From: a virus
Length of the DNA stretch: 64,000 bases
Reading direction: 5' to 3' (one strand)
IMG/VR virus record: IMGVR_UViG_3300033981_002454
Span: 1 to 64,000 of that record
A program made the translations under genes and the position numbers. Under the pieces are notes generated by a model. That model ran no database searches. It was not told the origin of the DNA and was given only the letters and a program-made list of their open reading frames with translations. Below, piece by piece: positions 16,491 through 64,000 of the stretch (position 1 is its first letter; every line of letters begins with the position of its first letter).

Positions 16491-17648
16491 TCAGTCAAAG
16501 TACACTCCGATTGGATCCTCCCCTCCGAGCCACTCTCTGTACACCTGATTGTGGACTGCAACTGTGTGACCCATGAACAAGGCCGCATGGGTATCGGTCA
16601 CCCGGTACTTGGGGGAATGAAGCCGTCTGGCGTATGCATGCCGAAATCCATAGGCAGTGGAACTTCCGCGCTGCAGGATTCCCGTCTGGCGCAGTCGCTG
16701 ATTGACGCTCCAGCCCGATCTTGCTTTTCCCGCTCGGCTCGGCAGGGGCTGTGTCCATAGTTGTTCCAGCCCGAAATCCTCCACCCACTCAGGATGGAAA
16801 GGAGGCACCTGACGCGGCTTGGTTGTCCCCCTGTTATTTGTCTTGCCTTCTTTGATCCATGCGCACCCGGGGCGCTTGTTGCACGGCTCGGCGATCCAGG
16901 CTTCCCAGGGCCTCAGCCCATAGACAGCCATGACAGCAACAACACGTCGCCATGGCATAGTCAGGGATGGATGCATCACAATTCGTATCACTTCTTCGTC
17001 GGGGAAGAAGGGCTGCCCCCGTTGGGGTTCCCTGACCGCCGATTGAAGCGGGTCCAGGAGGTCAGCATTCCACGTCCCTCCGCACACCTTGACCACTTTG
17101 CGCAGGAAGGGGATCAGTCGCCTCCTGTGAAGCGTTCCCACCTTGGCCCCCTCGATTGCGCTCAGCAGCGACTCCTCGCTGAGGGGTCGATGCGAATCAA
17201 GCCTCTGGAGGATCGGCAGGTGATTCCTTTGGAAGGTCGACTCGGCGATCCCTTCTGCGAGCTTAAGCCTCTTCCAACGCGCAACAACGTCATCAAGGTC
17301 CAGTCTCGACTGGCTCGTCTTACCCTTCTTTACCCTTTCGACCGCGCAGGCACCCCTCCAGGCATCTGAGTCAAAGCCGTCCACTTGCGTACTCAGGTAG
17401 CCCTTGAGGTCCCATGCACGCTTTTGGACGGCCTCTGGGCCCGCTTCGAAATCCAGGTGCAGTGGGATTTTCCGGCCACTGACTTGAACGTAGAGGCGCT
17501 GTCCGATAGCCCTAAGACGGAATCCCCTGCCAAAGGTGCCACCGCACTTTTCCGACAGGAGGGCCACTGTTAAATCGACCACCTTTTGCTGGGGGGCCGA
17601 GGGTAAGTTTACCCTTTTTTGACCCCTTTTGCCTCCAGTTGCCTCCAC
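16491..17648 (-). CDS. int: Tyrosine recombinase (phage integrase)
   Basis: Up to 385 residues from GTG 17648; internal GTG starts (e.g. 17582) are possible. A SAM-like core-binding region (DVVARWKRLKLAEG, near 120) precedes the catalytic domain: Arg I in YGLRPWEAW (about 240), Arg II in YGFRHAYARR (R336), GHT (H361) and the nucleophile in VYREW (Y370). The usual His of HxxR is Tyr here. The enzyme integrates the phage at an att site. 10-bp direct repeats overlap its 5' end and may be arm-type sites. It indicates a temperate lifestyle. Confidence 0.9.
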   Translation of the reverse strand: MEATGGKRGQKRVNLPSAPQQKVVDLTVALLSEKCGGTFGRGFRLRAIGQRLYVQVSGRKIPLHLDFEAGPEAVQKRAWDLKGYLSTQVDGFDSDAWRGACAVERVKKGKTSQSRLDLDDVVARWKRLKLAEGIAESTFQRNHLPILQRLDSHRPLSEESLLSAIEGAKVGTLHRRRLIPFLRKVVKVCGGTWNADLLDPLQSAVREPQRGQPFFPDEEVIRIVMHPSLTMPWRRVVAVMAVYGLRPWEAWIAEPCNKRPGCAWIKEGKTNNRGTTKPRQVPPFHPEWVEDFGLEQLWTQPLPSRAGKARSGWSVNQRLRQTGILQRGSSTAYGFRHAYARRLHSPKYRVTDTHAALFMGHTVAVHNQVYREWLGGEDPIGVYFD

Positions 17649-24346: not shown

Positions 24347-25348
24347 CCCTAGAGGCTCTTTATCCCCTAGTTCTGCAGCTTTGCCATTGCTGCAGCTCAG
24401 ACTATATCATCACCCTTCAGGTCCACCTGATTCGGGTGCGGAGCACTCGTGCCGCCTTATCGTCCACTTCCTGCAAGCAGGTGTTGGGACTCGCTCAGCC
24501 ATTGGGCAACAGTGCCCGTTCGACTGAGGTCAACTTTGTAGGCAAGGCAGGGATGTATGTACTCAGTAATGGCTCCAACAAGTAGTCGAAACTGCTTGGC
24601 GAACCATCGGAGATACAGCATTCCACCTTTGTGACGAACAACTGAGCCAGAGGCTCCGGTGACGTCGTGAATCCAAGAAGCGACAACATCAACCTCCTCT
24701 TCATCCTTGCTGACGGGCAGCCAGCCAGAGCGCTCGACCTTGATCGAGCGAGGCCTCTGACGGCGACGGACCTCCAGGGATCCATCGTCCATCCAGAGAA
24801 GTGCCAACGCCTCGGGGCCGAGGTCACTGAACGCCTGAGGGGTGAATCTTTTGACGCCATTTGGATATAAGACGTCATACACGGGGGCGAGGTGCCGCTT
24901 GCTGCTGACGCCGAAACGGACGGCGGGGTATTTCCCTTTGTCCATAAACGAGCGCAGAGATGCAGCAGTCCCGAGCTCTTGATTCAGCCGAGCCAGCTGC
25001 CATTGCGCGTAAGGCGCCTGGCGCTGACAGCGGCTGATGTACAGCGTAACTGTTCCGAAACGCTTATCGCGTCTCAGACAGCCATCACCAAGAGCACATC
25101 CCATGAAAAACGCTTGTGTCACAACTTGATTGCCTAGGGAGTCGACAACGGTAGTCGTTGAACCTTCCAGCCATTCCTGGCTGGCTTGGCTGCTGATTAC
25201 CCGGCCCAGTGTCATCCGTAAGAGTCTACCGGTTGGAGGGCTTCCAGCAATTCACTCCGTGTTCGACGCGGATTACGCCGCGAAGGAGCTGATAGCCAGA
25301 GCTGGTACGTCCGCCTCAGGGGCGAACAGGCCAGTCAGGGCTTGAGCC
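24347..25348 (-). ncRNA. Group I intron in the major capsid gene
   Basis: 1002 bases on the minus strand. Core-like elements: GGGTAATCAGCAGCCAAGCC (complement of 25183-25202) resembles the R/P7 side, and GATGATATAGTCTGAGC (complement of 24396-24412) the P7/P3 side. A P9-like hairpin CTGCAG...CTGCAG and a CTAGGGG...CCTCTAG hairpin precede the 3' end. At the 5' site, exon AGTT pairs with GACT in the intron, giving the expected U-G at the cut. The end GGG then TAAC restores the frame. Boundaries are inferred. Confidence 0.75.
24457..25215 (-). CDS. LAGLIDADG homing endonuclease inside the capsid intron
   Basis: 252 residues if started at 25215. That start overlaps the conserved intron core, so a later start (e.g. 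the ATG of MGCALGDGCLRRD) is likely. Two LAGLIDADG motifs are visible: FFMGCALGDGCL and ALALLWMDDGSLE, each with the catalytic Asp. It should cut an intronless capsid gene and promote intron spread. Its stop lies just before the 3' core of the intron. Confidence 0.8.
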   Translation of the reverse strand: MTLGRVISSQASQEWLEGSTTTVVDSLGNQVVTQAFFMGCALGDGCLRRDKRFGTVTLYISRCQRQAPYAQWQLARLNQELGTAASLRSFMDKGKYPAVRFGVSSKRHLAPVYDVLYPNGVKRFTPQAFSDLGPEALALLWMDDGSLEVRRRQRPRSIKVERSGWLPVSKDEEEVDVVASWIHDVTGASGSVVRHKGGMLYLRWFAKQFRLLVGAITEYIHPCLAYKVDLSRTGTVAQWLSESQHLLAGSGR

Positions 25349-25696: not shown

Positions 25697-26308
25697 GTGA
25701 AATTGAACGCACCAGACATTCGCGGCCTGCTGGGAGTCTTCCTTGGTGACGGCTTCCTCTCTCAAAGCAGGTCAGCGGTCAAGGGCCATATCAAGGCCAC
25801 CTTTCACGGTGGTGCCGACGAGCGTGAATTCCTCGAGGAGAAGGCAAGTGAAATCAAGCTCGTCATCCCAACCCAGGCCAAGATCTCGACCTATCAGATG
25901 CGCCCCAGCCAGACCGGCCATCAGACCACGGTGCTGCGATTCCGGTTCTCGAGTCCACTGCTAGATCCGGTCTACAACTTGTTCTATCCCGATGGATTTC
26001 GGGAAATCACGCACCCCCTCTTGGACATTCTTGGACTCAGAGCAGCAGCCTGGCTTTGGGCTGAGGGGTATCGAAAGGGGGACAAGGACCATCGCCTGAG
26101 GAGAGTTGGGGCCCTGCGAGACGAGGCTCGATTGGTCAGTGGCTGGCTCGAGTTTTTAACTGGCGCCAAGTCGTCCGTCACGGGCCAGTCCTCTCGAATA
26201 CTGCCTCAACTGTCGTTCAGCTCTAAGGATGCGGAAATCGTCAAGGAGGCCCTCCTTCCCTATGCCCCGATCAGCCGGAAGCATTTGTTTCTCCCGGGGG
26301 AAAAATGA
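25697..26308 (+). CDS. Free-standing LAGLIDADG-type endonuclease
   Basis: 203 residues from GTG 25697 with AAAGGA eight bases upstream. The first motif IRGLLGVFLGDGFLS is complete. The second, ILGLRAAAWLWAEGYRKG, has AEG where DDG is usual. VYNLFYPDGFREITHPLLD matches the intron enzyme's VYDVLYPNGVKRFTPQAFSD, so both belong to one subfamily. It is transcribed away from the capsid gene, only 83 bases from its start, with the next LAGLIDADG-type gene overlapping it. Confidence 0.7.
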   Translation: MKLNAPDIRGLLGVFLGDGFLSQSRSAVKGHIKATFHGGADEREFLEEKASEIKLVIPTQAKISTYQMRPSQTGHQTTVLRFRFSSPLLDPVYNLFYPDGFREITHPLLDILGLRAAAWLWAEGYRKGDKDHRLRRVGALRDEARLVSGWLEFLTGAKSSVTGQSSRILPQLSFSSKDAEIVKEALLPYAPISRKHLFLPGEK

Positions 26309-53870: not shown

Positions 53871-53889
53871 CACATCATCAGTGAAGCAA

Positions 53890-53915
53890 CTCAGCAGTGC
53901 ACACCATCTGTTGAG
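53890..53915 (+). promoter_or_regulatory. CAGCAG hairpin element, copy 1
   Basis: CTCAGCAG-TGCACACCAT-CTGTTGAG; eight base pairs including one G-U. 64 bases before ATG 53979. A second hairpin with GGGAGAT in its loop (GCGCT...AGCGC) follows. Confidence 0.7.
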
Positions 53916-53978
53916 AAGCATAGCGCTTTCACGGGAGATAAGCGCCCGACAACTACTGCTATTGCAGCAGCAACCTCA

Positions 53979-54158
53979 ATGGCTACCGTCATTCTTACTG
54001 ATCGGATCTACCGCTTCAGCACTCTCAATCCTGAGACCGTGGCAGTTAGCGTCTACCCCCTCAAGGGAGCGCGTGGGCTATGGCCCCAATCCACGAGTTA
54101 CTGCATCGAGAGGGCTCGCCGCCTTCTCGCCACACTTCGGACTCAGGCGATTGCTTGA
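53979..54158 (+). CDS. Small orphan protein, right arm
   Basis: 59 residues from ATG 53979: TVILTDRIYRFSTLNPETV, then a basic helix YCIERARRLLATLRTQ. Flanked by a hairpin element upstream and a strong terminator downstream, so it appears to be its own transcription unit. No family recognised. Confidence 0.55.
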   Translation: MATVILTDRIYRFSTLNPETVAVSVYPLKGARGLWPQSTSYCIERARRLLATLRTQAIA

Positions 54159-54164
54159 TCCCTT

Positions 54165-54200
54165 AGCCCCTGGTCCTTTACTGGATCAGGGGCTTTTCTT
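54165..54200 (+). terminator. Rho-independent terminator
   Basis: AGCCCCTG/CAGGGGCT perfect stem followed by TTTCTT, seven bases after the stop at 54158. Confidence 0.8.
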
Positions 54201-54210
54201 GTTGAACCTT

Positions 54211-54233
54211 CTCAGCAGTGCACACCACCTGCT
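54211..54233 (+). promoter_or_regulatory. CAGCAG hairpin element, copy 2
   Basis: CTCAGCAG-TGCACACCAC-CTGCT, ten bases after the terminator and seven before GTG 54240. Confidence 0.7.
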
Positions 54234-54239
54234 TTCCGC

Positions 54240-54428
54240 GTGACTCTTCCCTCTAATCTCCACTTCGGCTACGACATCTGGTACGGGCCCGTCCTCTGCT
54301 CCAATACCCTCCACGCAGTGGATGAGGCCCTGGGCTATCAAGACAGCCCCCTCGATGTCCTGAGATCCCTAACCTTCATCCCTGTCGGCCTTGAGTATTC
54401 TCGATGGCCACAGCTCACCATCTCCTAG
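54240..54428 (+). CDS. Small orphan protein, right arm
   Basis: 62 residues from GTG 54240 (no SD). Contains FGYDIWYGPVLCSNTLHAVDEALGY and a hydrophobic-aromatic end. Stop TAG is embedded in the following GTGCCA hairpin. No family recognised. Confidence 0.5.
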   Translation: MTLPSNLHFGYDIWYGPVLCSNTLHAVDEALGYQDSPLDVLRSLTFIPVGLEYSRWPQLTIS

Positions 54429-54443
54429 TGCCACATCTGGCAC
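54428..54443 (+). promoter_or_regulatory. GTGCCA-CATC-TGGCAC stop-codon hairpin
   Basis: A perfect 6-bp dyad with a 4-base loop that begins on the last base of the TAG stop. The identical sequence recurs at 55199 and a variant with a compensating G-U pair at 55623. Confidence 0.65.
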
Positions 54444-54455
54444 CCCCTACCCTCG

Positions 54456-54487
54456 CCCCGCTTGGAGTCGTCCAAGTGGGGCTTTTT
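54456..54487 (+). terminator. Rho-independent terminator
   Basis: CCCCGCTTGGA-GTCG-TCCAAGTGGGG, 11 bp with one G-U, then CTTTTT. Confidence 0.9.
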
Positions 54488-54498
54488 CGCTGGACCTT

Positions 54499-54520
54499 CT
54501 CAGCAGTGGACACCACTGCT
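54499..54520 (+). promoter_or_regulatory. CAGCAG hairpin element, copy 3
   Basis: AGCAGTG-GACAC-CACTGCT, a 7-bp stem seven bases before ATG 54528 and 11 bases after the terminator T run; no SD is present. Confidence 0.7.
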
Positions 54521-54527
54521 TCGACTT

Positions 54528-54692
54528 ATGGCAACCGCCTCCCCTCGCTCAGTGGCTGATCTCAATTGGCTCATTTCTCACGTCTCCGAGCGTTCTCGTG
54601 CGGGCGATCTTGAGGCGCAGGAACGCTTATCCGAGCTTCTCTGCGAACTCGAGGACCGCCTGGAGGCCAGCGGCTTCTACGACCGCAACTGA
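54528..54692 (+). CDS. Small orphan protein, right arm
   Basis: 54 residues from ATG 54528. One amphipathic helical unit (SVADLNWLISHVSERSRAGD, then ERLSELLCELEDRLEASG). Its own hairpin element and terminators on both sides. No family recognised. Confidence 0.55.
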   Translation: MATASPRSVADLNWLISHVSERSRAGDLEAQERLSELLCELEDRLEASGFYDRN

Positions 54693-54707
54693 ACTCTCAC
54701 GCCATCC

Positions 54708-54744
54708 GCCCCTGACTCCGCTCCGCGGGGATCGGGGGCTTTTT
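54708..54744 (+). terminator. Rho-independent terminator
   Basis: GCCCCTGA/TCGGGGGC stem with one G-U, then TTTTT. Confidence 0.8.
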
Positions 54745-54750
54745 CACTGA

Positions 54751-54773
54751 GTCCACTCAGCAGTGGACACCAC
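54751..54773 (+). promoter_or_regulatory. CAGCAG hairpin element, copy 4 (divergent)
   Basis: CTCAGCAG-TGGACACCAC keeps the consensus 5' arm and loop, but the 3' arm is CTTCTT. An alternative stem GTCCAC-TCAGCA-GTGGAC is perfect. ATG 54787 follows 14 bases later. Confidence 0.6.
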
Positions 54774-54786
54774 CTTCTTCGTTTCT

Positions 54787-55011
54787 ATGTCCCTTACATC
54801 CCTTTCCGATTTCCAGCTCCATCAACTAGCTGACCAGCTCGCCGACCAATACCGCCTCACGGAAGACGCATCCGTGGATGACCGCCTTATGGAGGTCTTC
54901 CGCGAAATGTCCCGCCGTGAGCACGCCATAGATGACCACTCCATGCAGGCTTTCTTCGACACGTCCTACCGTGAGCAAGTAGCCGAAATCCCTGTCATCG
55001 ACTGGCTATGA
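54787..55011 (+). CDS. Small orphan helical protein, right arm
   Basis: 74 residues from ATG 54787. SLSDFQLHQLADQLADQYRL and LMEVFREMSRREHAID are amphipathic helices. Stop overlaps the next start (ATGA). Confidence 0.5.
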   Translation: MSLTSLSDFQLHQLADQLADQYRLTEDASVDDRLMEVFREMSRREHAIDDHSMQAFFDTSYREQVAEIPVIDWL

Positions 55012-55199
55012 GCATCAACCACGCCTGGATGGGCTCCGCGATCGAATGCATGCACATGCGTGCTATCGATAGCGATGGAGACTACCGATCCCATCCCGAC
55101 TACAACGCCGGATGGAATCTCTTCTCCTCCTCCTCCTTCATGCCCATAGGGGACATGCTCCTCTCCCCAGAGGAGGATGATCCCCGCTGGTACACCTAG
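55008..55199 (+). CDS. Small orphan protein, right arm
   Basis: 63 residues; ATG 55008 in ATGA overlap, stop TAG embedded in the next GTGCCA hairpin. No family recognised. Confidence 0.5.
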   Translation: MSINHAWMGSAIECMHMRAIDSDGDYRSHPDYNAGWNLFSSSSFMPIGDMLLSPEEDDPRWYT

Positions 55200-55214
55200 T
55201 GCCACATCTGGCAC
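55199..55214 (+). promoter_or_regulatory. GTGCCA-CATC-TGGCAC stop-codon hairpin, second copy
   Basis: Identical to 54428-54443, again starting on the last base of a TAG stop, followed by the same CCCCTACCC. Confidence 0.65.
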
Positions 55215-55225
55215 CCCCTACCCCT

Positions 55226-55260
55226 GCCCCATCCGGCTATCCCCCGGGTGGGGCTTTTTT
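55226..55260 (+). terminator. Rho-independent terminator
   Basis: GCCCCA-T-CCGG ... CCGG-G-TGGGGC stem then TTTTTT. Confidence 0.9.
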
Positions 55261-55270
55261 AGTGAGCCTT

Positions 55271-55290
55271 CTCAGCAGTGCCACCTGCTG
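55271..55290 (+). promoter_or_regulatory. CAGCAG hairpin element, copy 5
   Basis: CAGCAG-TGCCAC-CTGCTG with a shortened loop, ten bases after the terminator; start at 55340. Confidence 0.7.
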
Positions 55291-55339
55291 TCTACGGCTC
55301 ACATCCCTTCGCCCCGGTTAGCAACCGGGCTACCCCTCA

Positions 55340-55609
55340 ATGACCGAGAACAACCTTCATTCTCTGTCTATTGATCTACGCTTGCTCGCAAGGGCAAGCA
55401 TCTGGACCTGCCCCTCCACTGGGCGGGTCCTCCAAGGCTCTATCGATCGCAAAATCGAAGCCCTCCGTGAGGTCATCCTTGATGCCCTCTGGGCCAAGCA
55501 AGATGGCCTCACCATCACCCAGCAGATGGTCGCCGCTGTCACCACAGCACGCACCCTCTGCCTCGATAACCAGCAAACGCTTCGCCAGCTGCGGCGAGCG
55601 GCTGCCTGA
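55340..55609 (+). CDS. Small orphan helical protein, right arm
   Basis: 89 residues. Helices LSIDLRLLARASIW, SIDRKIEALREVILDALWAK, then TQQMVAAVTTARTLC. No SD at ATG 55340. Function unknown. Confidence 0.55.
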   Translation: MTENNLHSLSIDLRLLARASIWTCPSTGRVLQGSIDRKIEALREVILDALWAKQDGLTITQQMVAAVTTARTLCLDNQQTLRQLRRAAA

Positions 55610-55622
55610 TGTATCTTCTGGG

Positions 55623-55638
55623 GTGTCATACCTGGCAC
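55623..55638 (+). promoter_or_regulatory. GTGTCA-TACC-TGGCAC hairpin, variant copy
   Basis: Variant of the 54428/55199 hairpin in which C to T in the left arm keeps a G-U pair, 14 bases after a stop codon. No T-run terminator follows. Confidence 0.5.
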
Positions 55639-55670
55639 CCCTCCCTTTGGTCCTATTCACTGAGCCAAAT

Positions 55671-55692
55671 CAGCAGTGCACACCGCCTGTTG
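55671..55692 (+). promoter_or_regulatory. CAGCAG hairpin element, copy 6
   Basis: CAGCAG-TGCACACCGC-CTGTTG (one G-U), 32 bases before ATG 55724. Confidence 0.7.
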
Positions 55693-55723
55693 TGCGGCTC
55701 AATACCCCTCACTGGAAATCCCC

Positions 55724-56287
55724 ATGTCCACTGCCACCAAGTCCAAGCCTTCCTCTACCGCCACCCCCGTGGCACCTGAAGCTCCCGAAGAACAGCCCAT
55801 CTTTGGTATCTACGAAGAGCTCGTCGCTGAGCTCGAAGCCGCCAAGGCAAGAATCACTGAGCTGGAGTCCTCAGGCGAACAGCTCAATCAAATCCTTTGG
55901 CTCCAAAAGACTCCCCCTAGGGGCTCTCGCCAGGGCTTCACTGACGGCGGCACGCCCTTTATTGAGTTTGGTGCCCAATTTGCGACTTTCAACAAGAAGA
56001 CCAATTCCAGGGTTTTCGGCGCCTGGAAGAACTTCACCGCATACGGCGAACTCGCTGAGACCATCGGTGAATTCTTCAACACAGACGATCGCCTCGTGCG
56101 CATCACTGCATACGAGCGCCCCTGGCACGGCACTGTTGCCGGTCCAGAGGGCCCTGTAAGCACCCGCAACACCGAATGGATCGTTGTCTCCTTCCAGCCC
56201 GTCGCAAGGCTGGATAGCCCCTCTCCGATGAGCGAGCCCGAGGCTCCCTTCTCGGGTGAGCCCACCTCGGAGGAAGTTTCCTTCTGA
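55724..56287 (+). CDS. Single-stranded DNA-binding (SSB/OB-fold) like protein
   Basis: 187 residues from ATG 55724. After a Pro-rich start and a coiled stretch (EELVAELEAAKARITELESS), FIEFGAQFATFNKK, WKNFTAYGELAETIGEFFNTDDRLVRITAY and TEWIVVSFQPVAR follow the strand order of SSB OB folds. The acidic tail ending SEEVSF resembles the SSB protein-interaction tip. It would coat ssDNA in replication. The N-terminal extension is unusual. Confidence 0.65.
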   Translation: MSTATKSKPSSTATPVAPEAPEEQPIFGIYEELVAELEAAKARITELESSGEQLNQILWLQKTPPRGSRQGFTDGGTPFIEFGAQFATFNKKTNSRVFGAWKNFTAYGELAETIGEFFNTDDRLVRITAYERPWHGTVAGPEGPVSTRNTEWIVVSFQPVARLDSPSPMSEPEAPFSGEPTSEEVSF

Positions 56288-56297
56288 GGTACATCCA

Positions 56298-56317
56298 GGC
56301 CCCGCCCGGGTGGGGCC
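56298..56317 (+). terminator. GC-rich hairpin after the SSB-like gene
   Basis: GGCCCC-GCCCGGGT-GGGGCC without a T run. The rest of 56288-56472 contains no gene I can support. Confidence 0.4.
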
Positions 56318-56472
56318 CTAATCCATCCAGTGGCCCCTTCCATGGCCGTTGCTCGGCCTCTCCTGGAGTCCATAACCATCAAGCAATTGTGTGTCCTAGC
56401 GCTCTTACAGAGCCGTGCCGGGCGACTTGCTAGCCATGGCATGCGGGCTAACCTCCTCTCAATTCTTTTCTT

Positions 56473-57189
56473 ATGACCACCCTCACCAAGAACACCGACC
56501 TCCTCAAACAGGAGGTCCACGAACACATCACGGCGGATGCCGTCGTCCAGGGTAATTACTGGTCAGACGGCAAAGGCTGCTTCATCGGGTGCCTGACTTA
56601 TTCAGGCGACCCCACTCCTGCTGTGGAGCGATTTGGGCTCACTGAGTCCATTCTTCGCATCGCGGAACGCATCTTTGAATCTCTTCCGCTTGAGGAAGCT
56701 AAGCAATTCTTCTTCGACTTTCCCGACGCCGTCGCTATGGACGGTAAAAACCTCTCCTTGATCCATTGGGTCTTCCTCGGTGAAACCCTAGGAAATCTCC
56801 CTCCTCAGCGGCCCGGAATCCAGGCCGTTATTGACCCAGTTATTCATGGCATGGATTTACTGGCTTCTGGCAACGTCTGGGGGACAGACGCCAGTGCCGC
56901 CGCCAGAGACGCCGCCTGGAACGCCGCCGGTGACGCCGCCTGGGCCGCCTCCTGTGCCGGCGCTAGGACCGGCTCCTGGGCCGCCTCCTGTGCCGCCTCC
57001 TGTGCCGGCGCTAGGACCGGCTCCTGGGCCGCCGCCATGGCCGCCGGTGACGCCGCCGGGGCCGCCTCCTGCGCCGCCAGGGACGCCGCCTGGAACGCCG
57101 CCGGTGACGCCAGTGACGCCGAAACTCGCCGGCAGCGGGACTCCCTGTTGTGGCTCATTCGAGAGGCGCCTGTTGTGACCCCTTCCTGA
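56473..57189 (+). CDS. Phage protein with Ala-rich tail (GxYWSDGKGCxxGC family)
   Basis: 238 residues. VVQGNYWSDGKGCFIGCLTYSG, ERFGLTESILRIAERIFESLP and VIDPVIHGMDLLASG follow a widespread phage/plasmid family of unknown function whose C-terminus is an Ala-rich repetitive helix. Here that is AARDAAWNAAGDAAWAAS with two 39-bp DNA repeats. LLWLIREAP closes the protein as in relatives. The product of 6901-7668 is a distant paralogue. Confidence 0.65.
   Translation: MTTLTKNTDLLKQEVHEHITADAVVQGNYWSDGKGCFIGCLTYSGDPTPAVERFGLTESILRIAERIFESLPLEEAKQFFFDFPDAVAMDGKNLSLIHWVFLGETLGNLPPQRPGIQAVIDPVIHGMDLLASGNVWGTDASAAARDAAWNAAGDAAWAASCAGARTGSWAASCAASCAGARTGSWAAAMAAGDAAGAASCAARDAAWNAAGDASDAETRRQRDSLLWLIREAPVVTPS
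56947..57033 (+). repeat. GC-rich 39-bp repeat, two copies offset by 48 bp
   Basis: GCCTCCTGTGCCGGCGCTAG and the following 19 bases occur at 56947 and 56995 within the Ala-rich coding tail. Confidence 0.75.
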
Positions 57190-57229
57190 TCACCCCTGTC
57201 CTGCAACCCTCTCTGATGTCTACTCCTTC

Positions 57230-57388
57230 ATGACAGCGCTATACACCCCTCGGCTGCTGCGCGGCGGCTCCTGGTTCAACTTCCCCAGGGACTGCCCCTC
57301 GGCCCATCGCTACCGCGCCCTGCCTGCTGATACCAGCGGCATCATCGGTTTCCGTGTGGTGTACCTCCCCCGGGAGGTAACACCATGA
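57230..57388 (+). CDS. FGE C-terminal segment cassette 1 (mini-ORF)
   Basis: 52 residues. RGGSWFNFPRDCPSAHRYR...IIGFRVVYLP is the C-terminal end of the formylglycine-generating-enzyme/sulfatase-modifying fold (a C-type-lectin fold), without the rest of the domain. The 3' end carries GGGAGGT eight bases before the next ATG, whose ATGA overlaps this stop. It aligns without gaps to cassette 2. Confidence 0.65.
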   Translation: MTALYTPRLLRGGSWFNFPRDCPSAHRYRALPADTSGIIGFRVVYLPREVTP

Positions 57389-57543
57389 CAACCCTTGACG
57401 CTTCTCGGCTACTGCGCGGGGGCTCCTGGATCTTTTATCCCGGGAGCTACGACTCGGCCTTCCGCTACCCCTTCCGGTGCGGCGGTGCCTTCAGTTTCAT
57501 CGGTTTCCGCGTGGTGTACCTCCCCCAGGAGGTAGCGCCATGA
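57385..57543 (+). CDS. FGE C-terminal segment cassette 2 (mini-ORF)
   Basis: 52 residues, same length and start (MTxLxxxRLLRGGSW) as cassette 1. The segment between W15 and G40 is almost entirely different (IFYPGSYDSAFRYPFRCGG), while the flanks are nearly identical. AGGAGGT sits before the next ATG, in an ATGA overlap. Confidence 0.65.
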   Translation: MTTLDASRLLRGGSWIFYPGSYDSAFRYPFRCGGAFSFIGFRVVYLPQEVAP

Positions 57544-58244
57544 CAGCCCCCGCAGTGCGCGGCGGCTCCTGGGTCAACGGACCGCTTGACTGCCGCGCCG
57601 CCTACCGGGGCAGCAGCGACCCGGCCTTCGTCAACTCCGACCTCGGCGTTCGCCCCTGCCGCCTCCTCCATCCATCTTCCATTTCTTCAGAGACCATGAC
57701 TACCTCCAATCACAGCATCTCCGCTTCCGCCCTCAACCTGCCGATGGTTTCCATCGCTCCAGGGCGCTTCATGATGGGATCCGATTCACCCTCCGCTTTC
57801 TCTGATGAGAAGCCGGTCCATGAGGTGATCATCGACAAAGGCTTTGAGATGGCGGAAGCTCCGACCACTCAAGCCCAGTGGCGATGGGTCGCCGAGAACC
57901 TGCCCAAGGTCGAGCGCGATCTCAATCCCGATCCCTCACGCTTCAAGGGCGATGATCGCCCCGTCGAATGCGTCTCCTGGTATGACGCCATGGAATTCTG
58001 TGCCCGCCTCAGTCAGGCCACAGGTAAGACCTACACCCTCCCTACCGAGGAGCAGTGGGAATACGCCTGCCGCGCAGGCACCACCACTGAATTCGCTTTC
58101 GGTGACACCCTCGATGAGTCCCAGGCACGCTTCAACGCAGATTCCACCTGCGATGTCAAGCAGTACCAACCCAACGCCTGGGGCCTCTACGACATGCATG
58201 GCCAGGTCTTCGAGTGGTGCCGCAACGAATACAAGCCCTATTGA
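57540..58244 (+). CDS. Cassette 3 fused in frame to a truncated FGE-sulfatase core
   Basis: 234 residues from ATG 57540 or 182 from ATG 57696. Residues 6-39 are a third C-terminal segment (VRGGSWVNGPLDCRAAYRG...) whose GFR end is altered to GVRP. From 57696 the normal N-terminal FGE core follows: PMVSIAPGRFMMGS, PVECVSWYDAMEFCARLS, YTLPTEEQWEYACRAGT, NAWGLYDMHGQVFEWC. It stops at CRNEYKPY, precisely before the point where relatives continue into RVLRGGSW...GFR. The order of parts is thus circularly permuted or the core is truncated. It may serve as a binding scaffold rather than an enzyme. Confidence 0.75.
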   Translation: MTAPAVRGGSWVNGPLDCRAAYRGSSDPAFVNSDLGVRPCRLLHPSSISSETMTTSNHSISASALNLPMVSIAPGRFMMGSDSPSAFSDEKPVHEVIIDKGFEMAEAPTTQAQWRWVAENLPKVERDLNPDPSRFKGDDRPVECVSWYDAMEFCARLSQATGKTYTLPTEEQWEYACRAGTTTEFAFGDTLDESQARFNADSTCDVKQYQPNAWGLYDMHGQVFEWCRNEYKPY

Positions 58245-58254
58245 TTCCCTGCCC

Positions 58255-58659
58255 ATGCATTCCGATCTGATTGGGGGCCGGCTTCGACATTTCATGCATC
58301 AAGCCGCCCCCTTTTTCTGCATTGCTATTGCCCTGCTCTGGCATCTTGTCGATGCCTCCTACGCCGCCGGCAGCCAGCTGCGTCTTGCCCTGGAAGAGCG
58401 CAGCCAGCAGCTAGCAGCCCTCCATCTCCACCTCCTCGGCCTCACTCCCCCTGAACCCCAATCCATCCCTCCTATGACCCTCTCTGTGCCCACTGCGGAA
58501 GACCCGGAGCTGACAGCCTTCCGCTGCGCTCTCAATGGAATCGACCTCAGCCTCAATGTGTCCCAGCTGCGTGCCCTGGCTCGCGAGCGGGGGCACCGCG
58601 GCAACAAGGTCTCCCGAGCTCGCCGCTCTGACCTGCTCCTCCTGCTGAGCAGGTCATGA
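58255..58659 (+). CDS. Membrane-anchored protein with SAP-like C-terminus
   Basis: 134 residues from ATG 58255. Membrane segment PFFCIAIALLWHLVDASYAA, coiled part (RLALEERSQQLAALHLHLL), and LNVSQLRALARERG...RRSDLLLLL resembling SAP/Rho-N DNA-binding helices. A second start at 58474 could give the SAP part alone. Stop overlaps the next cassette gene (ATGA). Confidence 0.5.
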   Translation: MHSDLIGGRLRHFMHQAAPFFCIAIALLWHLVDASYAAGSQLRLALEERSQQLAALHLHLLGLTPPEPQSIPPMTLSVPTAEDPELTAFRCALNGIDLSLNVSQLRALARERGHRGNKVSRARRSDLLLLLSRS

Positions 58660-59108
58660 CGTATCAAGTGCAACGCGGCGGTACTTGGTTTTTCAGGACG
58701 GAACAACAGGCGTATTTACGCTTGTCCTACCGACGCGCCGCTCCGCACTACCAAGACGATCTCGTCGGTTTCCGCGTGGTGTGCCTCCCTCGGGAGGTGG
58801 CACCACCTCGGATGCTACCGCCACTGCGCGGTGGCTCCTGGGGCAACAACCCCGGGTTCTGCCGCTCGGCCTGCCGCGGCTTCGGACGCTTCCAGCCCGG
58901 CTATGCCAGCAGCGGCTTGGGCTTCCGCGTGGTGTGCCTCCCTCTGGGGGTCAAGCCCACGCAGGTAACCATGCGCGGCGGCTCCCACGCCCAGCTCAGC
59001 TACCCCTGGTGCCGCTCGACCTGTCGCGGCATTTCCCATTCGCCCGACTATGCCGACTACGACCTCGGCTTTCGTGTGATCTGTCTTCCGCGGGGGATGA
59101 CACCATGA
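58656..59108 (+). CDS. Triple FGE C-terminal segment protein (cassettes 4-6)
   Basis: 150 residues holding three successive segments: QRGGTWFFRTEQQAYLRLSY...GFRVVCLP, LRGGSWGNNPGFCRSACRG...GFRVVCLP and MRGGSHAQLSYPWCRSTCRG...GFRVICLP, joined by short linkers. Each has conserved RGG and GFRV ends and a divergent interior. No FGE core is attached. Its stop overlaps the next ATG. Confidence 0.65.
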   Translation: MTYQVQRGGTWFFRTEQQAYLRLSYRRAAPHYQDDLVGFRVVCLPREVAPPRMLPPLRGGSWGNNPGFCRSACRGFGRFQPGYASSGLGFRVVCLPLGVKPTQVTMRGGSHAQLSYPWCRSTCRGISHSPDYADYDLGFRVICLPRGMTP

Positions 59109-59536
59109 CGATCCCCAATCGGGCGTTACGCGGCGGTCCCTGGGACTTCTTCCTTAGGCATTGCCGCTCTGCCCATCGCTTTCCCGGAGAACCCGGCGAG
59201 CCAATCGACAACATCGGTTTCCGCGTGGTGTGCGTCCCTCCAGGGGCCTCCACCGCACGCTGCGACTTGTCAATGCGCGGTGGCTCCTGGTTCAACTTCC
59301 CCAGGAACTGCCGCTCGGTCTACCGCTACCGCGACCAGCCCGGCTATGCCAACGACGTCATCGGGTTTCGCGTGGTGTGCCTCCCCCAGGAAGAAGCACC
59401 ATGCCGGGCGGTATTGCGCGGCGGCGGCTGGGACAGTCTCCCCTCAGACCGCCGCTTGGCTCACCGCGGCATTGACCTGCCCGGCTATACCGACGACTAC
59501 ATCGGCTTTCGTGTGATCTGTCTTCCGCCCTCCTGA
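59105..59536 (+). CDS. Triple FGE C-terminal segment protein (cassettes 7-9)
   Basis: 143 residues: LRGGPWDFFLRHCRSAHRF...GFRVVCVP, MRGGSWFNFPRNCRSVYRYR...GFRVVCLP, LRGGGWDSLPSDRRLAHRG...GFRVICLP. The middle unit is closest to cassette 1 (SWFNFPR shared). Same architecture as the preceding gene, so the two probably arose by duplication of a three-unit block. Confidence 0.65.
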   Translation: MTIPNRALRGGPWDFFLRHCRSAHRFPGEPGEPIDNIGFRVVCVPPGASTARCDLSMRGGSWFNFPRNCRSVYRYRDQPGYANDVIGFRVVCLPQEEAPCRAVLRGGGWDSLPSDRRLAHRGIDLPGYTDDYIGFRVICLPPS

Positions 59537-59565
59537 CCAACACACTTCACTTCTTTCTCAACCCC

Positions 59566-59835
59566 ATGACTTCTCTCCATCGACCTAAGCTCGGTAAAAG
59601 CCTCCGGCTCTCCATTTCTGCGGCCCTATTCCTCTACCTCGGGGTTGCAGCAGCTAACGATGCCAAGGACTTCTTCCTTGGAGGGCCCTATTGCGCGTGG
59701 TTCTCACTCGCTAGGCCCGTCTGCCAGGCTCCTTCCATCAGGAACTCCAGCAACTCAGTCTTGTTGAACATCCATGCTCCAGTTAAACCCTTGAGCCTTG
59801 CCAGCGTCCTCAACTCGTCAGCCTTGAGGCCATAG
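59566..59835 (+). CDS. Possible secreted small protein, overlaps an opposite-strand gene
   Basis: 89 residues. The start KLGKSLRLSISAALFLYLGV then AAAN-DAKD looks like a signal peptide with a cleavage site. From 59688 on, the frame is antisense to a better-supported zinc-ribbon gene, so the true 3' end is doubtful; it may be a truncated gene. Confidence 0.3.
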   Translation: MTSLHRPKLGKSLRLSISAALFLYLGVAAANDAKDFFLGGPYCAWFSLARPVCQAPSIRNSSNSVLLNIHAPVKPLSLASVLNSSALRP

Positions 59836-60086
59836 GCCATCTCTGGATTGGCCTCCCACTCCTCGATCGTCGGTGGCATGCGAGACCCCTTCTGTCTCGG
59901 CTCCGCCGCACGGCATGGCTTCCCATCTGTCCACTGCCTCAGCTCAGCTGGGATCACCTCCTCTGGCTGTTGAGACGTCCACAGCATTTGACTGCAACAG
60001 TCGCACTTCCTAGCTCTCACTCGTATCCCGTCTTCCCCCTTGTAGGTGTGAGCCACCTTTGTCTCACCACCGCATTCGCACTGCAT
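59688..60086 (-). CDS. Zinc-ribbon protein with SAP-like C-terminus
   Basis: 132 residues. CECGGETKVAHTYKGEDGIRV RARKCDCCSQ forms a ribbon with two Cys pairs, like the NrdR-type ribbon at 18147 (CPxC, RRRRxCxxC). GLKADELRTLARLKGL...NKTELLEFLM is SAP-like. Transcribed against the surrounding genes in a three-gene leftward islet. Confidence 0.6.
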   Translation of the reverse strand: MQCECGGETKVAHTYKGEDGIRVRARKCDCCSQMLWTSQQPEEVIPAELRQWTDGKPCRAAEPRQKGSRMPPTIEEWEANPEMAYGLKADELRTLARLKGLTGAWMFNKTELLEFLMEGAWQTGLASENHAQ

Positions 60087-60113
60087 GACGTGTGTTGCGC
60101 AATGCCCGACAAC

Positions 60114-60296
60114 TTACCCCATGTCATGCATTAGTGCATCCCATCCAGGCAGCTGGAGGCCCGCCAGGTCTTCAGTTGCGAACTTCCGGCGGAATCCCTC
60201 CAGCAGGGAGTGCTGAAGAATGGCCAGCTCTAAATCGCGCCGCATGGCGTCCTCGATCAACTGCGCCAGCTCAGTCTCCTCCCCTGCGTATCGCAT
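60114..60296 (-). CDS. Small hypothetical protein in the leftward islet
   Basis: 60 residues; ATG 60296 overlaps the preceding stop. Helical (ETELAQLIEDAMRRDLELAI). No family recognised. Confidence 0.5.
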   Translation of the reverse strand: MRYAGEETELAQLIEDAMRRDLELAILQHSLLEGFRRKFATEDLAGLQLPGWDALMHDMG

Positions 60297-60799
60297 CAGG
60301 CCAGTGGGCTCTCCTCAGTCCGCTGGACCTGTTGCTGCCCCTGCTGCATGAAGCCCATCAGAGCCATCAGTTGCTGAGCGCCTTCAGTCATGGCCGCACC
60401 GCCGGCCACTGCACCGCCAGCGGCCAATGCTGGGTAGGCGCCACGCCGCACAAGCGCACTATTCGCGAACTGGTGGCTCAGGCGCTCCCTTGGCCCCAGT
60501 GAGCCATGTCCACCCATTCCTCGTTTCATCTGGGATGAATACCTTGCCACGAAGTCGCTCTCCCCCATCTCGCTGAAGTCCTTCCGAATCGCTCCCATCT
60601 CGATCTGCTTACCAGATCCATCCCTGGCCCGATCGGCAATCTCCTGGATCATTCTGTCGGGATTGTCCTTGTAGAGCTTCCCGACGAGGTTGGCCTGCCT
60701 TGCCACGCCCGACGTCCTATGGGCAATCTCGTCTGCAATGGCTTTATCGATCATCTTCTGCTCGATGCCACCCAGCCATTTCAGCGGATTCATGCCCAT
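60296..60799 (-). CDS. Virion-type protein with hydrophobic Gly/Ala segment, leftward islet
   Basis: 167 residues from ATG 60799 (an upstream extension to 60862 lacks a good start). Charged helices (GGIEQKMIDKAIADEIAHR, RMIQEIADRARD), then PALAAGGAVAGGAAMTEGAQ and a Gln-rich end. Composition is like the internal virion-type proteins at 45036-49846, suggesting a displaced structural gene. Confidence 0.5.
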   Translation of the reverse strand: MGMNPLKWLGGIEQKMIDKAIADEIAHRTSGVARQANLVGKLYKDNPDRMIQEIADRARDGSGKQIEMGAIRKDFSEMGESDFVARYSSQMKRGMGGHGSLGPRERLSHQFANSALVRRGAYPALAAGGAVAGGAAMTEGAQQLMALMGFMQQGQQQVQRTEESPLA

Positions 60800-60847
60800 A
60801 ACTCGATCCTGGATCCCTCTCAGTCTAGTTCCTGTTTTGTGAGCCTT

Positions 60848-60873
60848 CTCAGCAGTGCACACTGCCTGTTGAG
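60848..60873 (+). promoter_or_regulatory. CAGCAG hairpin element, copy 7
   Basis: CTCAGCAG-TGCACACTGC-CTGTTGAG, 8 bp with one G-U, 34 bases before ATG 60907. Confidence 0.7.
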
Positions 60874-60906
60874 CGGGCCAATGTCCCTTTACCCTTTCCT
60901 CTGATC

Positions 60907-61326
60907 ATGCCCCAAATCTCTCTTCCCCTCGTTCCCATCGAGCTTCGCTGGTACAACATTCTCGACAGCGACAACTCCGAAAAGTCCAACTGGACTGAGG
61001 CCACCCTGGCTTTCGTGACCGGCCGCAAGGACGGCATCGCTGTTCGTGAGACAGCCGTCAAGGTTGGCTTCAAGTCCGACCACGCCATCGAGATGTTTGG
61101 CGAGGATGATCCATCCGAGTCCGTCGAGATCAACGGAGTGACCTACTTCGCCAAGATCGTCCAATCCCCGGAGGAAGGGAAGCCATACCGGCTGAGCGCC
61201 CTCCAGGTCGGCATGCGTGCCTGTCAGCTCAAGCAGCTGCAGGACGCCAGGAAGCAAGCCAAAGTGATCAACATCACTGACGCTCCCAGCAAGTCCGACG
61301 ACTCCGGCGAGGCTCAAACCGCCTAA
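60907..61326 (+). CDS. Hypothetical protein, right arm
   Basis: 139 residues from ATG 60907 (no SD). VPIELRWYNILDSDNSE...ATLAFVTGR, VTYFAKIVQSPEEGKPYRL and a Lys/Asp-rich tail. May be a single-domain replication accessory, by position near the SSB-like and Gp157-like genes. Ends before a strong terminator. Confidence 0.55.
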   Translation: MPQISLPLVPIELRWYNILDSDNSEKSNWTEATLAFVTGRKDGIAVRETAVKVGFKSDHAIEMFGEDDPSESVEINGVTYFAKIVQSPEEGKPYRLSALQVGMRACQLKQLQDARKQAKVINITDAPSKSDDSGEAQTA

Positions 61327-61352
61327 GACCAACATCTGTTTCGGTAGCAACG

Positions 61353-61378
61353 AGCCCTGGCGCAAGCCGGGGCTTTTC
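61353..61378 (+). terminator. Rho-independent terminator with GCAA tetraloop
   Basis: AGCCCTGGC-GCAA-GCCGGGGCT, nine base pairs (one G-U), then TTTC. Confidence 0.85.
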
Positions 61379-61439
61379 TGCTTCAATGACCGCCACGTCG
61401 GGCATACCGCCAGACACTCCATCCTTCCATCTCACTCCT

Positions 61440-62228
61440 ATGACCGTCGCTCCACCACCCAAGCCCACCACCTTTGAGCCCATTGTTCAGGCCAATGGCA
61501 GATCCCTCTTCCATCTGGCCATGGAGGCCCAGGAGATTGACGGCGAGCTTGCGATTGCCGTCGCCCAGCTCTCCTCTGAGGACCCCGAAGAGGTAGCTAC
61601 TGCAGAAGAGCTCATCTCCTCTATCCTCCAACGCGCCAATACCAGCCAGCAGTCATTGCTGGACAAGGTCAATCAAATGGCCTTTGTTGTTAAGTCACTG
61701 GAGAACCGTGCTGATTACTTCAAGCAGCAGGTCGAGACCTACAAGGAGAAGAGCAATCGCGACCAGGCCGATTCCGATCGCTTGCTCCGCTACCTGGTTC
61801 GAACCTTGGCGGCCCTCCACCCTGGCAAGAAGGAATTCCATCTTTCGGATTACGACCTCTGCTCACGTCAGAGTGACTCCACCGAGATCCTGGATGACCA
61901 GCAGGTCCCGCCGGATTTGTGCCGGCACGAAATCATCATCCAAGTCCCTGCTGGCAAGGGTGATTTAGGCCCCATGCTTCACAAGGAAATCAGTGATTTC
62001 ATTGCTGAGCTCATCACTGGTGTGTCGGGAGGTGATTATCTCTTGCCAACCCTTAATTCCTATCCAATCAAGAATCTTGTCAAGGAACGCATCAAGCAAA
62101 ATCCAGCCCCCGAAGAAGTCCGCTCCCTCTCAGCGGCTTACGGCCCAGCAACGCATGCGGTCGTCCTGAGATCAGACGCAGTCCCTGGCGCTGAGGTCGT
62201 TCGCAAGAAGACCTGGTCCATCAAGTGA
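61440..62228 (+). CDS. Gp157-like phage protein (Sipho_Gp157 family)
   Basis: 262 residues from ATG 61440; ATG 61386 is possible. LFHLAMEAQEIDGELAIAV, NQMAFVVKSLENRADYFKQQ, then SNRDQADSDRLLRYLVRTL follow the coiled-coil layout of phage Gp157 proteins, commonly encoded with SSB and recombination genes. A C-terminal region (residues about 130-262) with HEIIIQVPAGKG and NLVKERIKQNP is extra compared with short relatives. Role in recombination or phage resistance is only suggested for the family. Confidence 0.65.
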   Translation: MTVAPPPKPTTFEPIVQANGRSLFHLAMEAQEIDGELAIAVAQLSSEDPEEVATAEELISSILQRANTSQQSLLDKVNQMAFVVKSLENRADYFKQQVETYKEKSNRDQADSDRLLRYLVRTLAALHPGKKEFHLSDYDLCSRQSDSTEILDDQQVPPDLCRHEIIIQVPAGKGDLGPMLHKEISDFIAELITGVSGGDYLLPTLNSYPIKNLVKERIKQNPAPEEVRSLSAAYGPATHAVVLRSDAVPGAEVVRKKTWSIK

Positions 62229-62725
62229 CGCTCCAGCCGCCATGGCTGCAAGTGAGTTACACCCCGACCGGAGATGGGCTAATCACGCCCATCAATGGTC
62301 GGGCCAAAAGCGCACTCATCACCCTCTTCCCTCTCTACCAATTTGAGCGCATCGGCGAATCAGTCCTGCTCCCTCCTGAGCAGCTGAGCGCGATGTGCTC
62401 TTTCCTTTCATCCCTCCAATGCCAATTCACACCGTCACAACCCATCCCAAGCCCAGCTACAAAATCCCCGGCTGGGACTATTCCTACTTCGATAAACCCA
62501 CCAACGCAGGCGGGCAGTCCGTCGCTGTCTTCTCGCCCGCAATTTCAGACATCATCAAACCTGGATTTCAGTTCGACGAAAGCCAGCTCCGCTTCGAACC
62601 AACTCTCGGTGCTTCTGTCCTCGAATTGGACTTCCATGAGCCGCAGCAAATGGAAGAGCCTTCGATCCCTCCTAACCCTGAGGCCGGGTGGGGAGATCCT
62701 GACTGTCTCCCTACCGCGGAATTAG
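62225..62725 (+). CDS. Hypothetical protein, C-terminal part doubtful
   Basis: GTG 62225 overlaps the previous stop. The first 65 residues (YTPTGDGLITPINGRAKSAL, ITLFPLYQFERIGESVLLPP) look like a real small domain. The remaining Ser/Pro/Thr-rich part overlaps the next gene in another frame and looks like a shadow, so a frameshift or very long overlap is present. Confidence 0.4.
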   Translation: MTLQPPWLQVSYTPTGDGLITPINGRAKSALITLFPLYQFERIGESVLLPPEQLSAMCSFLSSLQCQFTPSQPIPSPATKSPAGTIPTSINPPTQAGSPSLSSRPQFQTSSNLDFSSTKASSASNQLSVLLSSNWTSMSRSKWKSLRSLLTLRPGGEILTVSLPRN

Positions 62726-63000
62726 GACACGGCAGCAACGGGCATCGACCGCCCCATCCCCATACCGCCCGTAAGCGGGCCAGGGAGGAGGGGGCTCAAA
62801 CCCTTCCAGCTGCCCTCGTCCGGATCGCAAGTGAAATTGCCTCCTGCTACTGCATGATATACAGGCTGATCTCGCCTGTCGTCAACGAGGCACGCCGAGC
62901 TGACGTCGCTCAGAAACTTACAGCTATTGCTTGTATTCCCTATTACAGGGCAGCAGGCGTCGAACTCAGTGAGGACGACGTCAAAGGCATGACCATGTGA
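62419..63000 (+). CDS. Hypothetical protein, right arm
   Basis: 193 residues from ATG 62419 (an in-frame GTG at 62395 is possible). YKIPGWDYSYFDKPTNAGGQ, VFSPAISDIIKPGFQFDESQ, a charged linker, then helices VRIASEIASCYCMIYRLI and VAQKLTAIACIPYYRAAGVE. Ordered ends with a disordered middle. No family recognised. Confidence 0.55.
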   Translation: MPIHTVTTHPKPSYKIPGWDYSYFDKPTNAGGQSVAVFSPAISDIIKPGFQFDESQLRFEPTLGASVLELDFHEPQQMEEPSIPPNPEAGWGDPDCLPTAELGHGSNGHRPPHPHTARKRAREEGAQTLPAALVRIASEIASCYCMIYRLISPVVNEARRADVAQKLTAIACIPYYRAAGVELSEDDVKGMTM

Positions 63001-63018
63001 CAAATTCTTGCGCCTGTT

Positions 63019-63040
63019 CAGCAGTGCGCACGACCTGCTG
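63019..63040 (+). promoter_or_regulatory. CAGCAG hairpin element, copy 8
   Basis: CAGCAG-TGCGCACGAC-CTGCTG, 18 bases before ATG 63059. Confidence 0.7.
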
Positions 63041-63058: not shown

Positions 63059-63643
63059 ATGACTTCCTCTCTATCCACTCAATCACCCGAGCTACCCCAC
63101 TGGGCGACTCCCACTCCTCCCCCTCCTCAGCCGATGACCATCGGCATCGACCCCCTAGCCAATTTCTACCTGTATGACCGCAAGGACGTCATCTTCCCTG
63201 AGATCCGCGGGGCAATCACTGCCCTCCGCTTGATCCAGCTAGCAGGGAACACCGAGTCAGGCCCTCGTGATTACCTCGAGGTACGCATGATCTCTGGTGC
63301 TCCTACTCAGCCGTTTCGTCTGCTTCTGCCCGCTGATGAGCGTCCCGTGGACAGAGAACCTGGCCAGGTTTCTACTTCCAACTCCATCAAAAGCCTTCTA
63401 GGGGCGCTGCTCGTTCTTGATCTGACTACCCAGGCAGTCAAGCTGATCACCTCAAAGGGTGAGGGTCGAGTCAAGAACCGCAAGCCGACGTTCATCAATG
63501 TCTGCGTCTGCGGTCCTGACTGGGAATCCATCGCCCAGGTCAGAGCTGAAAACATCGGCGGCTCCAAAGCCGACATGGTTGCAGCCATCGCCCAAATCAA
63601 TCAATCCCTTCAGCAAGGGGTAGTGGCCCTCCCCAGCCGCTAG
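63059..63643 (+). CDS. Hypothetical protein, right arm
   Basis: 194 residues from ATG 63059 (no SD). NFYLYDRKDVIFPEIRGAI, DYLEVRMISG, SIKSLLGALLVLDLTTQAVK and INVCVCGPDWESI. A mixed alpha/beta protein without recognised family. It carries its own hairpin element. Confidence 0.55.
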   Translation: MTSSLSTQSPELPHWATPTPPPPQPMTIGIDPLANFYLYDRKDVIFPEIRGAITALRLIQLAGNTESGPRDYLEVRMISGAPTQPFRLLLPADERPVDREPGQVSTSNSIKSLLGALLVLDLTTQAVKLITSKGEGRVKNRKPTFINVCVCGPDWESIAQVRAENIGGSKADMVAAIAQINQSLQQGVVALPSR

Positions 63644-63686: not shown

Positions 63687-64000
63687 ATGGCACACGAAGT
63701 CACTTCTGCAGTCTTCATGCACGGCACTGCCGCCTGGCACCCCGAAGGCGACGTCATCGAAGGCACCATGCCCGCCCCTGACGCCTTCCGTCGCTACGGA
63801 GCTCTCTTCCCTGTGGAGAAGCTCCAGCTCTGGGCCGGCGACCTCAGCAATCCTGAGCTCCTCGATGCCATTGCCCTGGCGGCTGACCAGCCCTTCTCTA
63901 CCCCGCAAGAGCGTGGAGAAGCCATCCACCAGGCCGCGTATCAGCACCTGATCAGCATGGCGGACAGCCGTGTTGCCATCTGGCGTCCCGACACCCGCAA
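63687..64000 (+). CDS. DUF932-type phage/plasmid protein (3' partial)
   Basis: Open to the window end from ATG 63687 after a pyrimidine-rich leader. MAHEVTSAVFMHGTAAWHPE resembles the start of DUF932 (TIGR03299) proteins (MaHEL...pWHglG), which occur on many phages and plasmids. About 104 residues are visible. Function of the family is unknown. Confidence 0.6.
   Translation, partial: MAHEVTSAVFMHGTAAWHPEGDVIEGTMPAPDAFRRYGALFPVEKLQLWAGDLSNPELLDAIALAADQPFSTPQERGEAIHQAAYQHLISMADSRVAIWRPDTR

Follow-up and report, generated by a model that had tools for sequence, protein, structure and literature searches.

The repeated element described here combines a nearly invariant core with base pairing that is under selection, and most of its copies stand at operon starts. 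It was found in a 64,000-base window of viral DNA (bases 1–64000 of an 87,101-base IMG/VR virus record, about 87 kb), which holds eight copies; two more lie beyond the window, at 65327 and 69503 of the record, giving ten in total. All ten are on the plus strand of the right arm, and each is followed by the start of an open reading frame (ORF). The invariant part is the sequence TG-N6-CTCAGCAGTGCACA with a T-rich tract upstream. We tentatively favor the view that the element is a phage-specific start site from which a transcript would begin with a hairpin, a reading that we consider plausible but short of probable.

A first-pass annotation of the window had described eight copies of a CAGCAG hairpin. 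All eight are present on the plus strand; the fourth has its core at 54756, since 54751, the position first given, is the start of its alternative hairpin. Seven matches to CTCAGCAGTGCACACCRC with at most three mismatches were found in the window against 0.10 expected from dinucleotide shuffles, and a reversed control pattern gave none. The eighth copy (55271, CTCAGCAGTGCCACCTGCTG), shorter by two bases, was recovered with its own pattern. A covariance search, as the annotation had suggested, used a model built from 17 copies and recovered all ten, the 54499 copy weakly (E 0.06), together with those of three relatives (G022–G024). Apart from known copies, matches of this model above E 0.01 are probably due to chance. 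No Rfam model matched the window at its gathering score.

By terminase, the closest named relative is Synechococcus phage S-EIV1 (48% identity over 98%), and on this relatedness the window's virus can be classed as an S-EIV1-like cyanophage. The element is carried by six relatives, reaching down to about 70% terminase identity, and thus by seven viruses including the window's. These relatives are two near-identical phages (G002 and G008), G013 (about 74% terminase identity), and G022, G023, and G024 (about 70%). The last three were picked up through another feature, the hairpin TAGTGCCACATCTGGCACC that closes small genes, rather than through the start element, so that their start elements are an independent confirmation. 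Neither S-EIV1 nor the more distant G018 clade, nor any of the other relatives searched, yielded a convincing copy with the covariance model; L013, L014, and L016 were followed only as far as this search. Single pattern matches, with no further copies, in L009, L011, L012, L015, L017, L018, and L020 were set aside. Neither the element pattern nor a right-arm protein had a match in the bacterial genomes scanned, and a hand-made consensus, compared with named phages by blastn, was matched over only half its length (E 0.9). By eye, we noticed CTGTGCATTTTT (at most one mismatch) before orthologs of three element-led genes in the G018 clade (L058 6322, 13554, and 16075, equal to G018 66322, 73554, and 76075); as a lead only, it could be that clade's counterpart of the element.

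Across 32 non-redundant copies from the seven phages, TG, six variable bases, and TCAGCAGTG keep a fixed register, every position reaching at least 31/32, and CACA follows the core with few exceptions. The upstream T-tract is kept in copies without a terminator (44% T). Four genes (E, F, 60907, and 63059) are led by the element in all seven phages, and their amino acid identity between clades is only 30–41%.

The core pairs in one of two ways. In about 24 of the 32 copies it pairs downstream, forming hairpin B, and in most of the others it pairs upstream, forming hairpin A. The consensus stem initially proposed, CTCAGCAG/CTGYTGAG, is not common to all copies: those at 54756 and 63017 pair upstream instead, and the one at 54211 folds poorly. 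A weak hairpin B tends to go with a stable hairpin A (Spearman −0.46, p = 0.008), and all clades have a weak hairpin B at the 63059 orthologs, with hairpin A in its place, less clearly in G013. First folds left one-third of the copies without structure; once more relatives were included, most of these proved to form the alternative upstream hairpin.

The pairing is under selection, as judged from a swap test and from double compensations. In the swap test, native 3′ halves pair better than exchanged ones (mean −18.2 versus −15.3 kcal/mol, z = −6.8), and none of 50,000 permutations was as good as the native arrangement. The test used all copies (it was also done on a smaller set) and is therefore stronger evidence than the 17-copy alignment, whose members were picked for folding as hairpin B and which is thus biased towards structure. 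In that alignment, 81% of cells are paired versus at most 43% with the partner slid, both sides have changed at four pairs (for example C-G to U-A, G-C to C-G, and A-U to G-C), and the covariation score was matched by 1 of 500 shuffles. One stem pair is G-U in 11 copies and G-C in 5. Because G-U pairs of this frequency fit RNA better than DNA, RNA is likelier to be the folded strand.

Signals of ordinary initiation are scarce around the copies. No sigma-70-like promoter was found on the plus strand of the region, and the only one in all, on the minus strand, compares with 3.0 expected. TANNNT is almost absent from the 60 bases upstream of 21 copies, and a −10 box sought at a fixed distance was not found. 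Start codons lie 26–86 bases after the A of AGCAG, behind pyrimidine-rich bases without AGGAG. The genes had been described as lacking a Shine-Dalgarno sequence; none is present at the start behind any copy, but this is not specific, as the element-free neighbor at 63687 lacks one too. Terminator-like sites are enriched in the region (19 versus 6.5 expected). Where three copies had been said to follow a T-run terminator, four do so within about a dozen bases (54211, 54499, 54756, and 55271), and the copy at 69503 likewise lies directly behind one. At gene 60907, the element sits in the short gap behind an oppositely oriented gene, and this divergent neighbor was matched beside the element in G002, G008, G022, G023, and G024, and in part nearby in G013. 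This arrangement makes a local start of rightward transcription likely at the 60907 orthologs, and the terminators immediately ahead of the copies named above point the same way. The earlier suggestion of a phage-specific promoter or RNA regulatory element is supported by conservation in six relatives, a location mostly at operon starts, compensatory pairing, and the lack of a sigma-70-like promoter nearby.

The idea that each small gene forms its own unit applies to the array at 53.9–55.7 kb but not elsewhere, where the element heads longer operons. Small ORFan genes of the array are joined by a conserved junction, in which the stop codon is followed by the TGCCACATCTGGCAC hairpin, a terminator, and then the start element; it recurs in the window's type, in G013, and in G022–G024. 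Between copies 1 and 6, the small genes differ in the two closest relatives, and the flanks are nearly identical. A 48-amino acid gene common to the distant phages G002 and G013 (71% identical) does not occupy this position in the window's phage. Ordinary recombination at the repeats would explain such exchange of cassettes.

We propose that one class of phage transcripts, those of non-structural genes, has the element at its 5′ ends. These RNAs would probably start at the invariant TG or immediately before it, in a phage-dependent manner and without a recognizable −10 box, on a signal made up of the T-tract, TG, N6, and CTCAGCAGTGCACA. The first ~40 bases of the RNA would fold as hairpin B, often with a closing outer helix that begins at TG, or as hairpin A, and this 5′ hairpin could be bound by a factor or could shield a short mRNA. 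Host RNase E is raised by marine cyanophage infection (PMC9692554); that the hairpin is protective is no more than speculation. Together with the 3′ hairpin and the terminator, the 5′ element could make small accessory genes into self-contained units that are exchangeable between phages. It is possible, if rather doubtful, that the element is bifunctional, one invariant core serving as a phage-specific transcription start and folding into either of two mutually exclusive 5′ hairpins, which with the 3′ hairpin and terminator would yield a portable cassette from which uncultured cyanophages express small accessory genes. The sequences themselves show the conservation, the compensatory pairing, the position at operon starts, the conserved junction, and the differing genes between elements of close relatives, whereas we infer the start site, the mode of the polymerase, the role of the hairpin, and the route of cassette exchange.

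Several points weigh against a start site whose transcript opens with a hairpin. A DNA-bound factor with no RNA role could suffice for the invariant core. An unconstrained consensus fold of the 17-copy alignment supports only five inner pairs, and the copies at 54211 and 65327 fold poorly, so that hairpin B is not strictly required. The expectation that related phages keep the element at orthologous genes holds for the four genes named above but fails at gene 65396, which carries it only in the window's own type and apparently not in G013, G022–G024, or G018. No phage polymerase, sigma factor, or RNA-binding protein able to read the element was identified: Pfam revealed no sigma factor in five of the viruses, and a PF00940 search for a single-subunit RNA polymerase gave nothing, as it also did in control genomes.

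A promoter or activator site acting purely at the level of DNA, akin to the interpretation preferred for the extended start-associated sequences (ESAS) of mycobacteriophages, is an alternative that we consider unlikely. A phage-modified host polymerase or a DNA-binding factor would read TG-N6-CTCAGCAGTGCACA, with the dyad either a mere by-product or part of a binding site that is partly palindromic. Such a site would account for a core that is near-invariant in fixed register and kept even without hairpin B, for a spacing of about one helical turn from TG to core, and for a left half that is better conserved than the right, as in ESAS (PMC3203893). It does not account for the swap test and the double compensations, which include outer-helix pairs that differ between clades, and a DNA palindrome would be broken by the G-U pairs. 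The hairpins could also act as antitermination leaders in the manner of put or nut sites, each passing polymerase from one upstream promoter near 53.7 kb through the next terminator. Every unit of the array does open with a hairpin and close with a terminator, and TATACT-like boxes are present in the stretch upstream of copy 1, but readthrough to the 60907 orthologs behind their divergent genes would have to cross more than 1 kb of antisense sequence. With many operon-leading copies having no terminator just ahead, and with T-tract and TG conserved upstream of the fold, we judge antitermination to be quite improbable.

An integrase-like protein is encoded at 16494–17648 of the window (minus strand; phrog_1, E 3e-7; no Pfam integrase match). 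That the copies are repressor sites silencing a prophage, like the stoperators of cluster A phages, is in our view very improbable: an asymmetric core, a single orientation with transcription, positions in intergenic gaps, and the integrase-like gene would all suit such sites, but no copy lies near the only weak helix-turn-helix candidate (85827–86444) or the adjoining rightward operon start, and the RNA covariation would be left unexplained. A gene-cassette recombination site resembling integron attC could make use of the tyrosine-recombinase-like gene and would fit the differing small genes between nearly identical flanks in close relatives. We give it little credence: in every clade the element also heads genes that are conserved, not exchanged, and separated by kilobases, inspection of the copies by eye revealed none of the attC core boxes (RYYYAAC/GTTRRRY), and ordinary recombination at repeats would already explain the exchange. 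An attachment-site reading was considered as well and ranked low. The virion RNA polymerase of phage N4 uses promoters with a short stem and a three-base loop in single-stranded DNA, and the first-pass annotation had drawn this comparison. A hairpin ahead of genes with no visible ordinary promoter is the shared feature, but a single-stranded DNA promoter of this type is hardly credible here: the element has a long, often G-U-paired stem and a larger loop of 8–10 bases, some copies are without that hairpin, and no large RNA polymerase gene was noticed among the ORFs, with the PF00940 family search blank in the control genomes as well.

Coordinates of the element copies and associated features are given in Table 1. 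Beyond the window, the protein encoded behind the 65327 copy (L021 1396–2793, record 65396–66793) resembles ones that in other phages bear the annotation RIIA lysis inhibitor. The helix-turn-helix candidate (L022 2827–3444, minus strand, record 85827–86444) matches HTH_31 at E 0.04, a match below the cut-off; it is divergent from the replication operon and may possibly be a repressor.

Table 1. Element copies and associated features in the window
Feature	Coordinates	Strand	Remarks
Element copy 1	53881..53932	+	TG at 53882, core from 53890; hairpin B, outer helix GTGAAGC/GCTT(T)CAC
Element copy 2	54203..54233	+	pairing weak only
Element copy 3	54491..54520	+	short hairpin AGCAGTG/CACTGCT; start codon shortly after
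Element copy 4	54748..54773	+	hairpin A GTCCACT/AGTGGAC (54751–54768) replaces hairpin B
Element copy 5	55262..55302	+	hairpin B, outer helix GTGAGCC/GGCTCAC
Element copy 6	55661..55701	+	hairpin B, outer helix TGAGCC/GGCTCA
Element copy 7	60840..60880	+	hairpin B; short gap behind divergent minus-strand gene
Element copy 8	63009..63040	+	hairpin A TGCGC/GCGCA replaces hairpin B
Terminator-like hairpin and T-run	54165..54194	+	precedes copy 2
Terminator-like hairpin and T-run	54455..54482	+	precedes copy 3
Terminator-like hairpin and T-run	54721..54737	+	precedes copy 4
Terminator-like hairpin and T-run	55226..55254	+	precedes copy 5
3′ hairpin GTGCCACATCTGGCAC	54428..54443	+	overlaps stop codon TAG of cassette gene B
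3′ hairpin, second copy	55199..55214	+	at end of cassette D
3′ hairpin, diverged copy (GTGTCATACCTGGCAC)	55623..55638	+	
Cassette gene A	53979..54158	+	59 aa, no family match
Cassette gene B	54240..54428	+	62 aa, no family match; not at this place in two closest relatives
Cassette gene C	54528..54692	+	54 aa, no family match; not at this place in two closest relatives
Cassette D	54787..55199	+	two small ORFs, 74 and 63 aa
Gene E	55340..55609	+	89 aa; element-led in all seven phages
Gene F	55724..56287	+	187 aa, acidic SSB-like C-terminal tip; element-led in all seven phages
Gene behind copy 7	60907..61326	+	139 aa; element-led in all seven phages
Gene behind copy 8	63059..63643	+	194 aa; element-led in all seven phages

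Other features of the genome are noted in passing. An alanine-rich repeat (AARDAAWNAAGDAAW...) at 56860–57140, within the ORF at 56473–57189, varies in units and length between the window and the two closest relatives. Downstream, at 57230–59536, short ORF segments share the repeated pattern RGGSW...CRS...GFRVVCLP and by eye resemble tandem sulfatase-modifying-factor or C-type-lectin folds. ORFs at 24457–25215 (minus strand) and 25697–26308 (plus strand), near the presumed capsid gene, look by eye like homing endonucleases. The last ORF of the record (L022 3697–4101) continues into the opening of the window (11–2167); the record ends overlap, and so the genome would be circular or circularly permuted.

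The element would provide a handle on how genes are switched on in an S-EIV1-related lineage that lacks recognizable promoters in this region. It also marks an exchangeable array of small genes of unassigned function, among which genes directed at the host or its defences could plausibly be found.

Among known systems, the stoperators of cluster A mycobacteriophages (PMC9283540) are also repeated, asymmetric sites oriented with transcription. They are repressor sites that stop elongation, whereas no repressor is tied to the element, which in turn shows base-pair covariation. The 17-bp dyad repeats of cluster O mycobacteriophages (PMC4351075) likewise have no assigned function, are dense in the right arm, and show some indels between copies, but about one-third of them lie inside genes, with no consistent orientation and no tie to translation starts.

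The closest known system is that of the start-associated sequences (SAS) and ESAS of cluster K mycobacteriophages (PMC3203893, PMC7302621, PMC11373665, PMC12699233), with similar motifs in cluster EF Microbacterium phages (PMC7302621). In layout the element is like SAS/ESAS, yet it does not belong to that family. The likeness lies in some 10–20 copies at non-structural genes only, intergenic before start codons and nearly all in one orientation, as are all ten copies here, and ESAS too forms an imperfect inverted repeat, with the left arm better conserved and the sequence varying between subclusters. Sequence and host are unrelated, and the element lacks the Shine-Dalgarno part of these repeats, the 13-bp GGGATAGGAGCCC of SAS with its AGGAG a few bases ahead of the start codon, and the SigA-like −35/−10 boxes proposed for ESAS (PMC11373665). 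Start-associated repeats of phages are long known and still lack an established function. RNA pairing has been judged unsupported for ESAS but is supported for the element, and compensatory pairing here, set against its absence from the best-known case, allows roles of RNA and of DNA to be told apart directly.

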